Source: Candidatus Poribacteria bacterium
GTDB lineage: Bacteria > Abyssobacteria > SURF-5
Direction: 5' to 3'
Length of the DNA stretch: 17,493 bases
Assembly: GCA_016215705.1 (NCBI GenBank)
Contig: JACRIR010000163.1
Coordinates: forward strand, 1 to 17,493
Positions 6,871 through 12,432 of the stretch are shown in pieces. Each line of letters begins with the position of its first letter. The stretch's first letter is position 1. The notes beneath the pieces were generated by a model. That model made no database searches. It saw nothing but the letters and a program-made list of their open reading frames with translations, and was not told the DNA's origin. The position numbers and the translations under genes are program-made.

Positions 6871-9417
6871 ATGTACACACGAAATGAAATAGTCGTCCCG
6901 GTCAATATCGAGACCGAGATGAAGAAGTCGTTCATTGATTACGCGATGAGCGTGATCGTCGCGCGAGCGCTGCCTGATGCGCGCGACGGCCTCAAGCCGG
7001 TGCACAGGCGCATCCTCTATGCGATGAATGAGCTCGGCCTGGGCTCGAGGCGCACTTATCGGAAGTGCGCGCGCTTCGTCGGCGACACGATGGGTAAATA
7101 TCATCCGCACGGCGACACCGCCATCTATGACTCACTCGTGCGCATGGCGCAGGATTTCAACATGCGCTATCCCCTCATCGACGGGCAGGGCAACTTTGGC
7201 TCGATTGACGGAGACAATGCCGCCGCCATGCGATACACCGAGGCGCGGATGGCCCCGATGGCCGAAGAGATGCTTGCCGACATCGACAAGAACACCGTAG
7301 ATTTTCAGCCCAATTTCGATGAATCGCTTCAGGAGCCCGCGGTGCTGCCCGCTGCCTTCCCGAATCTGCTCACGAACGGCTCCTCCGGCATAGCGGTCGG
7401 CATGGCGACAAATATTCCGCCGCATAACCTGGGCGAAGTGATTGACGCGCTGTGCATGCTCATCGATAACCCGGATGTCTCTCTCACTGAGTTAATGGGG
7501 GCAATCAAAGGACCTGACTTTCCGACCGGCGGGCTTATCCTTGGCGCCGAGGGTATCGAGCAAGCGTTCCGCACGGGCCGCGGAAAAGTGATTGTCCGCG
7601 CGAAGGCGAAAGTGGAGAAGCCTTCCCGGGCCGGCGGCAAAGAAAGCATCGTCGTCACCGAGATACCCTACCAGGTCAACAAGAGCAAACTCATCGAGAG
7701 TATCGCTGACCTCGTCCAGCAGAAGAAGATCGAGGGTATTTCCGACATCCGCGACGAGAGCGACAAGGACGGCATGCGCATCGTCATCGAGATGAAGCGC
7801 GGAGAAGTGGCCGAAGTCATTCTCAACCAGCTCTATAAGCACACCGCGATGCAGACCACCTTCGGCATAATCATGCTCGCGCTCGTCGAGAACCGGCCGC
7901 GCATACTCGGCCTCAAACGCGCTCTGAGCGTATATCTCGACCACAGGGTAGACGTAGTCACGAGGCGCACCCGGTTCGAGCTCGGCAAGGCCGAGGAGCG
8001 GGCGCATATCCTCGAGGGTCTCAAGATAGCGCTCAACAACATCGACGAAGTCATCGAAACCATCAAGAAATCACACACTCCCGAGCAGGCGCGCATCGCT
8101 CTCATCGGCAAGTTCGGATTGACCGAAAAACAGGCGCAGGCGATACTCGATATGAGGCTGCAGCGCCTCACCGGTCTCGAGCGAGAGAAGATAGACGCTG
8201 AGTATGAGGACCTCCTCCGAACGATGGCGAACCTGCGGTCGATTCTGGAAAGTCCGCGCGTCCTCATGGGTGTGATCCGCAATGAGCTTGCCGAGATGAA
8301 GAAGAAATACGCTGACGCACGGCGCACTGAAATCCTCGGCGAAGTCGGCGAATTCAAGGTCGAAGACTTCATCCGCGACGAGGACATGGTCATAACCATA
8401 TCTCACGCCGGCTACATGAAACGGCTGCCGGTGAGCACGTACCGTAAGCAGCGCCGGGGCGGAGTCGGAGTTACCGGCATGGAGACGAAAGAGGAAGACT
8501 TCGTGGAGCACCTTTTCATTGCGTCTACGCACGATTACATCCTCTTCTTTACCGACCGCGGACACGTGCACTGGCTGAAGGTTCACGAAATCTTGCGCGC
8601 AGGTCGCTATTCAAAAGGCCGCGCCATTGTCAATATGCTCCAGTTGGCCGAAGGCGAGACGGTCGCGGCGTTCCTGAGCGTGAAGTCATTCGAAGACGCG
8701 AAATACGTCATGATGGCTACCGAAAGAGGCGTCGTAAAGAAGACCGAGCTTGCCGCTTTCAGCAACCCGCGCAGCGGCGGCATAATTGCGATCTCACTCG
8801 AGGGGGAGGACAGGCTCACGCAGGTCAAGCTGACGAGCGGCGACGATGAGATACTGCTCGGGACAGCGCAGGGACTGGCAATCAGATTCCATGAGAGGCA
8901 AGTGCGTCCGATGGGCCGAACCGCGCAGGGAGTCATCGGCATCCGGCTCGAGGAGGGCGACCACGTCATTGGAATGGAGACGGTCAACGTCGAGGCCACC
9001 ATCCTCGTTGTGACCGAGAACGGCTATGGCAAACGAACCAACTACGACGAATACCGGATACAGAACCGCGGCGGCAAAGGCATCATCAACATAAAGACCA
9101 CGACTCGGAACGGCCGCTGCATCGGGATGCGCACAGTCCGGGAGAATGAAGAAGTTGTCTGCGTTTCCTCGAAGGGTATGGTTGTGCGTTCGCCCGTGAC
9201 CGAAATATCCGTCATCGGGCGGAATACCCAGGGAGTGCGGATCATCAGGCTCCAGGAAGACGACAAGTTCGTTGCCATCGCTGTTGTCATGCCGAAGGAG
9301 CAGGAAGAGTCGTTTGCCAACGGGATCGAGGTTTCGGCGACGGATTCCGACAAAGCCGACGGCGAAGAGGAAGTATCAGAGTCGGGAGAAGAAACGGAAT
9401 CGCCGGAAACCTCCTGA
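6871..9417 (+). CDS. gyrA: DNA gyrase subunit A
   Basis: GyrA is the breakage-reunion subunit of gyrase. The 848-aa product aligns residue for residue with E. coli GyrA at its N terminus: the catalytic tyrosine is Tyr122 in AAAMRYTEARM. The quinolone-determining stretch reads HPHGDTAIYD (78-87), so position 83 is Thr rather than the E. coli Ser, and Asp87 is kept. The C-terminal beta-pinwheel carries the GyrA box QRRGGVG (527-533), which supports true gyrase rather than topoisomerase IV. The protein ends with a Glu/Ser-rich acidic tail. No good ribosome site is visible before ATG 6871, but the exact match in N-terminal numbering supports that start. It follows gyrB on the same strand. Confidence 0.97.
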   Translation: MYTRNEIVVPVNIETEMKKSFIDYAMSVIVARALPDARDGLKPVHRRILYAMNELGLGSRRTYRKCARFVGDTMGKYHPHGDTAIYDSLVRMAQDFNMRYPLIDGQGNFGSIDGDNAAAMRYTEARMAPMAEEMLADIDKNTVDFQPNFDESLQEPAVLPAAFPNLLTNGSSGIAVGMATNIPPHNLGEVIDALCMLIDNPDVSLTELMGAIKGPDFPTGGLILGAEGIEQAFRTGRGKVIVRAKAKVEKPSRAGGKESIVVTEIPYQVNKSKLIESIADLVQQKKIEGISDIRDESDKDGMRIVIEMKRGEVAEVILNQLYKHTAMQTTFGIIMLALVENRPRILGLKRALSVYLDHRVDVVTRRTRFELGKAEERAHILEGLKIALNNIDEVIETIKKSHTPEQARIALIGKFGLTEKQAQAILDMRLQRLTGLEREKIDAEYEDLLRTMANLRSILESPRVLMGVIRNELAEMKKKYADARRTEILGEVGEFKVEDFIRDEDMVITISHAGYMKRLPVSTYRKQRRGGVGVTGMETKEEDFVEHLFIASTHDYILFFTDRGHVHWLKVHEILRAGRYSKGRAIVNMLQLAEGETVAAFLSVKSFEDAKYVMMATERGVVKKTELAAFSNPRSGGIIAISLEGEDRLTQVKLTSGDDEILLGTAQGLAIRFHERQVRPMGRTAQGVIGIRLEEGDHVIGMETVNVEATILVVTENGYGKRTNYDEYRIQNRGGKGIINIKTTTRNGRCIGMRTVRENEEVVCVSSKGMVVRSPVTEISVIGRNTQGVRIIRLQEDDKFVAIAVVMPKEQEESFANGIEVSATDSDKADGEEEVSESGEETESPETS

Positions 9418-9519: not shown

Positions 9520-9564
9520 CGGAAAATCGGGGACACGATGCGGCATCGTGTCCCCGATTTTCCG
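9520..9564. repeat. REP-like palindrome, family A copy 1
   Basis: Two perfect 22-base arms (9520-9541 and 9543-9564) surround a single G. The core is GGGGACACGATGC with its complement; the outer arms carry AAAAT on the left and ATTTT on the right. On either strand the GC-rich core is followed by a T-run, the layout of a bidirectional terminator, so it may end gyrA transcripts. Family A recurs at 12366 and, decayed, at 16225. Confidence 0.85.
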
Positions 9565-9607: not shown

Positions 9608-9636
9608 TTGTCCGTGTCACCTTGCCGTGACATAAT
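9608..9636 (+). promoter_or_regulatory. promoter of the cysteine-rich small gene
   Basis: TTGTCC (9608-9613), a 17-base spacer and CATAAT (9631-9636) match sigma-70 at 4/6 and 5/6. The predicted start near 9643 leaves a leader of about 30 bases before the ATG at 9673. Confidence 0.5.
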
Positions 9637-9672
9637 TATTTAAGAAGAGAAAATGAAAGGGGGCGATACCCA

Positions 9673-9804
9673 ATGGTCGGAATTGGCGCTATAAGACATT
9701 GTCAGGTTTGCGGATGCACCCCCTGCAAGGCGTGCGGAGCAGACATTGAAAATAGAGTTTGCAGCGGCTGCGGAAAGCCCGCTAAGGAGTGTTCCTGTAA
9801 GTAA
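9673..9804 (+). CDS. small cysteine-rich zinc-ribbon-like protein, 43 aa, unknown function
   Basis: This short gene encodes 43 residues, nine of them cysteine (10, 13, 15, 18, 21, 30, 33, 40, 42), with His9 beside the first. The spacing gives CQVC, CTPC, CKACG, then CSGCG and a final CSC. CKACG...CSGCG (18-34) has the two-knuckle form of a zinc ribbon; the extra cysteines could bind a second metal or an iron-sulfur cluster. There is no signal peptide or membrane segment. AAGGGGG (9657-9663) lies nine bases before the ATG, a promoter lies at 9608-9636 and an intrinsic terminator at 9844-9880, so it looks like a real single-gene unit. An ATG at 9653 is out of frame and closes quickly. I do not know its function; redox, metal handling or a partner-binding role are guesses. 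Confidence 0.7.
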   Translation: MVGIGAIRHCQVCGCTPCKACGADIENRVCSGCGKPAKECSCK

Positions 9805-9843
9805 GCAATCCTCCACGTGGGCAGGACCGCAGTTTTTGAAATG

Positions 9844-9880
9844 AGAAGCCCTTCGAGAAAAATCGGAGGGCTTCTTTCTT
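9844..9880 (+). terminator. intrinsic terminator after the cysteine-rich gene
   Basis: The stem AGAAGCCCT (9844-9852) pairs perfectly with AGGGCTTCT (9867-9875) across a 14-base loop and runs into TTCTT. The T-tract is interrupted by one C. It lies 40 bases after the stop codon at 9802-9804. Confidence 0.75.
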
Positions 9881-10003: not shown

Positions 10004-10140
10004 ACTAGTAACATGATTCCAAAATAGCATAGCATGAACTTCAAGGATGAGTATGACCGCATATGTCATTCTGAGCGAAGCGAAGAATCTCGTTCTTTAT
10101 GGCTATTGCAACGCTACTTAGGAAGCGCTCTACTAGTGTG
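10004..10140. repeat. MITE-like repeat unit A (internally deleted copy)
   Basis: The first 90 bases (10004-10093) match 10238-10327 at 89 of 90 positions, the one difference being A/G in AAAAT(A/G)GCATAG. The last 41 bases (10100-10140) match 10427-10467 at 33 of 41. The unit begins ACTAGTA and ends TACTAGTGTG, giving short inverted ends. Compared with unit B it lacks about 93 internal bases, including one arm of a hairpin. It carries no transposase gene. Confidence 0.75.
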
Positions 10141-10244
10141 CTGAGTCATAAAAACGTAATCAGTTCCATGGGCCAAAATCTCAGCAAAATCGGACAAAAC
10201 CGCATGTAACTTCATAAACGAATTAATGACTCAGCACACTAGTA
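10131..10244. repeat. 114-bp spacer element with 19-bp inverted ends
   Basis: TACTAGTGTGCTGAGTCAT (10131-10149) is the exact reverse complement of 10226-10244. The outer ten bases of each arm are shared with the ends of units A and B; the inner nine (CTGAGTCAT / ATGACTCAG) belong to the spacer. It could be a tiny non-autonomous element inserted at a CTAG site, possibly with that site duplicated, or merely the junction of two units. No coding capacity. Confidence 0.6.
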
Positions 10245-10467
10245 ACATGATTCCAAAATGGCATAGCATGAACTTCAAGGATGAGTATGACCGCATATGT
10301 CATTCTGAGCGAAGCGAAGAATCTCGTCCGTGGTTTCAAAGGTGCTGCAACTTATGGAGATTCTTCGCTTCGCTCAGAATGACATCCGAGTCTGGCTGTC
10401 TGCATATGGACATGAATATCTTGCTGTGGCTATTGCAGCATTACTTTAGAAGCGTTCCACCAGTGTG
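10235..10467. repeat. MITE-like repeat unit B (longer copy) with foldback hairpin
   Basis: Unit B starts CACACTAGTA and ends CACCAGTGTG. It contains a perfect 29-base inverted repeat (10297-10325 with 10357-10385) around a 31-base loop; the arms include ATTCTGAGCGAAGCGAAG, a motif I know as a dispersed palindromic repeat in diverse bacteria. Unit A carries only the left arm. A reading frame across 10226-10567 is made of these repeats and is not a gene. Confidence 0.75.
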
Positions 10468-12365: not shown

Positions 12366-12432
12366 CGGGAAAAACGGGGACACGATGCCGCATCGTGTCC
12401 CCGTTTTTCCCGGCATCGTGTCCCCGTTTTTC
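12366..12432. repeat. REP-like palindrome, family A copy 2 with duplicated arm
   Basis: Perfect 23-base arms (12366-12388 and 12390-12412) surround a single C; the core GGGGACACGATGC is the same as at 9520. The right arm is then repeated in tandem: GCATCGTGTCCCCGTTTTTC occurs again at 12413-12432. The A-tract/T-tract flanks differ from copy 1 (AAAAAC/GTTTTT instead of AAAATC/GATTTT) but stay complementary. It may terminate transcription in both directions. Confidence 0.85.

Follow-up and report, generated by a model that had tools for sequence, protein, structure and literature searches.

A small, strongly conserved family of cysteine-packed, probably metal-binding proteins in bacteria and archaea

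The window analysed here (the whole stretch of DNA, 17,493 nucleotides long) contains at 9673-9804 a real gene for a 43-amino-acid protein, MVGIGAIRHCQVCGCTPCKACGADIENRVCSGCGKPAKECSCK, which belongs to a conserved family with invariant cysteines and is under purifying selection. The cysteines are residues C10, C13, C15, C18, C21, C30, C33, C40 and C42; an earlier reading made from the sequence only had described a 43-amino-acid ORF with nine cysteines at these positions, and our reading agrees with it. The family is a small, strongly conserved and uncatalogued one of cysteine-packed, probably zinc-binding proteins found in both bacteria and archaea. To judge from the sequences of its members, the product is most likely a small protein of the Zn(II)-thiolate type with a metal-buffering role like that of metallothioneins, a reading that we hold tentatively, with slightly less than even confidence. 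The features to which the text refers are the following.

6871 to 9417, forward strand: gyrA, the upstream neighbour kept in Abyssubacteria (context, outside the gene)
9608 to 9636, forward strand: sigma-70-like promoter TTGTCC-17-CATAAT with an extended -10, TGACATAAT
9655 to 9663, forward strand: ribosome binding site GAAAGGGGG, by direct reading, 9 nt upstream of the ATG
9673 to 9804, forward strand: ORF of 43 amino acids plus stop with nine cysteines, based on the reading of the sequence, homologues and dN/dS
9700 to 9738, forward strand: N-terminal unit C10-x2-C13-G-C15-x-P-C18-x2-C21-G
9760 to 9798, forward strand: C-terminal unit C30-x2-C33-x-K-P-x3-C40-x-C42, present in every member by retrieval
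9843 to 9876, forward strand: intrinsic terminator hairpin of 14 pairs with a T-rich tail (dG -24.3, z -5.2)

The gene stands at the end of the order dnaA, dnaN, a dciA-like gene (DUF721), gyrB and gyrA, these names having been assigned from the sequences of the genes. In Candidatus Abyssubacteria all three genomes examined carry the nine-cysteine gene after gyrA, as a strong match in single copy. One of the relatives (G001) has gyrA directly upstream and a Pyridox_ox_2 gene downstream; in the other (G002) a TPR gene on the opposite strand lies between gyrA and the nine-cysteine gene. The promoter, ribosome site and terminator that the sequence-only reading had seen in the right places were all found, and a TG precedes the second hexamer of the promoter-like element. 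G002 has an identical GAAAGGGGG upstream of its own nine-cysteine gene, has the promoter segment GTGACATA(A/G)TTAT in common with the window and ends in a comparable hairpin; the hairpin of G001 was no stronger than shuffles (z -1.3).

A frame with nine cysteines within 35 residues occurred once in the real window and in none of 300 first-order resampled windows. Two further genera have the protein, with conservation of 74% and 67%. Comparison of the window with G001 gave a dN of 0.22 and a dS of 2.98 (ratio 0.07), and silent sites were saturated in the remaining two Abyssubacteria pairs. Amino-acid replacements within this phylum were concentrated in residues 1-9, and no frameshift was seen in these close relatives. 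Ten additional family pairs showed a pN of 0.00-0.17 against a pS of 0.30-1.10. The earlier reading had pointed to homologues with the same cysteine spacing, to a bias toward silent change and to intact frames as marks of a genuine gene; the spacing is kept in relatives near and distant, and silent changes dominate. Its view of the ORF as a real small gene is supported. An untranslated chance ORF in an intergenic region would be in keeping with a length of just 43 codons and with the failure of every family library to recognise the protein, but the conservation spans phyla and both domains, change is silent-biased, most members are preceded by ribosome sites and the chance rate was zero in the 300 windows. 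We regard this explanation as effectively refuted, its probability being close to nil.

A profile made from the three Abyssubacteria sequences was searched in 386 diverse genomes, and this search, free of any pattern bias, found two clear outsiders, in G228 (E 5e-16, MCQVCGCTPCKKCGKPIEKKVCSGCNKPARECSC) and G209 (E 9e-10, MCKTCGCTLCKCGKKIVNRVCEGCGKPYDDCTC). Some 85,000 species genomes were scanned with a DNA pattern for CG-x7-CxxC-x-K-P-x3-C-x-C; of the 37 stretches that matched, about 26 encode clear nine-cysteine relatives (one with eight cysteines). With profile and pattern together, members outside the phylum number about 26 and are 33-43 amino acids long; most of them begin with Met-Cys and have a ribosome site upstream. 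The bacterial carriers are Phycisphaerae and other planctomycetes, Brocadiia, Kuenenia (anammox relatives), Nitrospinota, Nitrospirae, Deltaproteobacteria, the acidobacterium Sulfotelmatobacter and, in the CPR, Gottesmanbacteria and Paceibacterota. Among archaea the family was found in several Bathyarchaeota, with two paralogues in one record (L050, L066), and in Micrarchaeota and Marsarchaeota. Its distribution is sparse, with five carriers among the 386 genomes, three of these being Abyssubacteria, and one among the six genomes examined in the phylum of G209; because the retrieval pattern is exact, the family counts are lower bounds. The conserved neighbours that the sequence-only reading had proposed to look for did not emerge, as no gene context is common across lineages and conservation of neighbourhoods is limited to single lineages.

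Single-sequence searches of 60 relatives gave weak matches that were almost all cysteine-rich noise. A match in the own genome at C83 (E 0.0017) was rejected, its frame being Arg-rich and low in cysteine. Phage and plasmid collections contained no homologue, and viral matches to the patterns (three plus one) were discarded as unrelated longer proteins.

The family consensus is MCxTCGCxPCKx(0-1)CGxxIxxxVCxGCxKPxxxCTC. Four positions, C10, C13, G14 and C18, do not vary in the alignment of 29 members, and 28 of the 29 have C15; none of these positions is part of the retrieval pattern. Between C21 and C42, whatever the pattern demands is invariant by construction, and this holds for the invariant G22 and K35-P36, all three of which are in the pattern; G32 is near-invariant. 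Most members have CxxCG-x7-CxxC, and the archaeal type has CxCG. Nine cysteines are present in 28 of the 29 members, and 27 have no histidine. His9, to which the earlier reading had drawn attention, occurs in just 2 of 29 and is therefore not a conserved ligand.

Relatives with other cysteine numbers differ from this pattern by whole units. Three planctomycete variants with 11 cysteines (L041:6043, L049:6124 and L063:1871) are 47 amino acids long, have the terminal CxxCxxPxxxCxC unit duplicated and the N-terminus changed, and show a pN of 0.06-0.12 and a pS of 0.66-0.88. Two mini forms with seven cysteines, in a Pacearchaeote (L065:929-1006, reverse strand) and a Falkowbacterium (L071:938-1021, forward strand), keep CxxCGC and the terminal unit and have no middle pair; one added pattern, with a middle gap of at most 36 nt, covered this seven-cysteine form alone and not the nine-cysteine form. 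Such loss and duplication of units implies modular metal sites, and on the simplest reading the terminal four-cysteine unit would bind metal at one site, with a second site made by the N-terminal cysteines. The claim that the cysteine pattern goes beyond a single zinc ribbon is supported, and the tentative suggestion of two metals or a cluster would fit the modular 7-, 9- and 11-cysteine variants. On a separate point, downstream of each of the three 11-cysteine genes the opposite strand carries first a PTS EIIA-type gene and next a queA-like one.

Searches of Pfam, NCBIfam and PHROGs gave no member a match above weak noise. The matches of single proteins in Pfam, NCBIfam and the PDB (NuoE, L32, L37, NOT4) were weak and cysteine-driven and were rejected, NuoE because the match covered one cysteine-containing stretch and was found in 2 of 29 members. 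The PDB profile search gave weak matches to the NOT4 RING and L37 and no convincing relative. In the predicted structure (mean pLDDT 78, pTM 0.49) there is one short hairpin around I25-V29, with strands at 25-26 and 29-30, and a fold search with this model (pTM 0.49) found no structural relative. The C-terminal half of the NOT4 RING (PDB 1ur6/1e4u) has the same order C-G-x-x-x-C-x2-C ... C-x-x-C-x-K-P (E 0.002), but the family is without the first RING cysteine pair and has a C-terminal CxC added; the resemblance is most likely convergence of cysteine-rich sequences. Zinc ribbons of the DZR type (PF12773) have CxxCG knuckles with a short hairpin between them, an arrangement that the family may share; in the family the loop is shorter (7 residues), a further CxxCGC and CxC are present and Lys-Pro follows the last knuckle; the DZR profile matched 1 of 29 members at E 0.026, short of the threshold.

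Metallothioneins of the SmtA/BmtA type (PF02069) resemble the family in that nine cysteines are packed into a tiny protein encoded by a free-standing gene. Common to both are an initial C-x-C-x(2)-C-x-C, which reads CGCTPCKC in archaeal members and CACEPCLC in the cyanobacterial proteins, and a C-x-C at the end. The metallothioneins differ in being 53-60 amino acids long as against 33-43, and in having 5.3% histidine as against 0.2%, and the family is Lys-rich with another middle spacing and Lys-Pro. The Metallothio_Pro profile PF02069 matched none of 29 members at E 0.1 and found nothing in the own genome, and hhalign against 30 cyanobacterial-type metallothioneins gave a probability of 0.7%. 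Since there is no profile similarity and the metallothioneins are longer and His-bearing, the family stands outside Metallothio_Pro. For SmtA and PflQ2MT, 3-4 bound Zn have been published (PMC10612145). In the open-access papers searched, the motif was absent as text, the single match being unrelated. What we describe is a real small-protein family of a familiar kind, probably a cysteine-rich metal binder, and an unnamed cluster of it may exist in small-ORF catalogues.

The composition of the 29 members (23% cysteine and 1% aromatics, with 19 lacking any aromatic residue) and their net charge, mostly +3 to +8, point to a metal-thiolate character. Metal binding, the assignment of cysteines to sites and buffering are what we infer. 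The product would be a small metal-thiolate protein, free-standing and transcribed on its own, in which the nine cysteines within 33 residues enclose Zn(II) or similar ions, probably two in number and possibly three. The C-terminal unit CxxCxKPxxxCxC would form one site and the N-terminal CxxCGCxPCxxC cluster the other, the short beta hairpin (I25-V29) would lie between the second and third knuckles, and the lysines would offset the thiolate charge. Its most likely role would be to buffer or carry metal inside the cell in the manner of a metallothionein. A buffer is preferred to a protein with a dedicated partner because the gene has its own promoter and terminator, there is no constant neighbour, the distribution is patchy and one Bathyarchaeota record has two paralogues. 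The change of cysteine number by whole units is among the other points in its favour, and the single hairpin at the expected place in the predicted model was also counted for it. Against it we counted the lack of a profile match to known bacterial metallothioneins and a structure search that found no relative for the model, whose pTM of 0.49 is low; among the genes beside the nine-cysteine gene, none was recognised as a metal sensor or a metal transporter. Gly, Lys-Pro and Ile/Val stand at fixed positions, as if the protein had a specific fold; such a fold would be expected of an adaptor too and counts against a buffer.

Such an adaptor is the chief rival, a possibility that we take seriously while thinking it on balance improbable. 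It would be a structural double-zinc microprotein, a rigid mini-fold fixed by zinc through the knuckles CxxCG-x7-CxxC and a second site, with a surface for contact with another protein or with RNA or DNA, the metal being structural and not cargo. The knuckle-like spacing, the invariant G22 and K35-P36 (set by the retrieval pattern) with the near-invariant G32, the net positive charge and sub-threshold likenesses to zf_C2H2_13, DZR, the NOT4 RING and the L37/L32 ribosomal zinc ribbons are consistent with it. However, no partner gene is conserved, the distribution is patchy, the cysteine count changes by whole units, and the zinc-module resemblances are weak and of a sort expected of any cysteine-rich sequence. 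It is unlikely that the protein carries an iron-sulfur cluster, has a redox function or assists in the assembly of Fe-S clusters. In its favour, a cysteine desulfurase and a NifU_N/FeS_assembly_P fusion directly precede the gene of G209 (L036 1-1602) on the same strand, about 100 bp away, and many carriers appear to be anaerobes; yet this neighbourhood was seen once, the family motif matches no known Fe-S motif and Zn sites typically have the knuckle-like CxxCG spacing.

Returning to the metal buffer, the further proposal that the family is a new prokaryotic class of metallothionein-like buffers, 33-43 residues long, composed of cysteine units that can be exchanged (7, 9 or 11 cysteines in all), present in both bacteria and archaea and without sequence relationship to SmtA/BmtA, is one that we offer with distinct reserve. 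Proteins of such length usually escape gene callers, and none of the curated libraries covered here contains this family, although selection on it is strong in bacteria and archaea that are far apart. As a metal buffer it would represent a compact type, metallothionein-like but lying outside the prokaryotic family known so far; as an adaptor it would rank with the smallest folds that hold several metals. The 33-residue core is within reach of chemical synthesis, and therefore its metal stoichiometry is directly testable.

Several repeats were also noticed. An inverted repeat, GTGTCAC-N6-GTGACAT, at 9614-9633 overlaps the -10 region of the promoter and is a possible operator; in the promoter comparison it is not kept as a palindrome in G002. 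At 10004-10327 the window has two 90-nt direct copies (99%) of a sequence with the motif TGTCATTCTGAGCGAAGCGAAGAATC, with an inverted copy at 10357-10385 and fragments at 55 sites in the genome, and this dispersed repeat may have displaced the Pyridox_ox_2 neighbour known from relatives. A perfect palindrome, CGGGGACACGATGC-NN-CATCGTGTCCCCG, occurs at 9520-9564 and 12375-12403, where it forms very stable hairpins. With at most 2 mismatches it has 264 forward matches in the genome, against 0 for the reversed control; it constitutes a REP-like element family, one copy of which lies just 5' of the promoter of the nine-cysteine gene.
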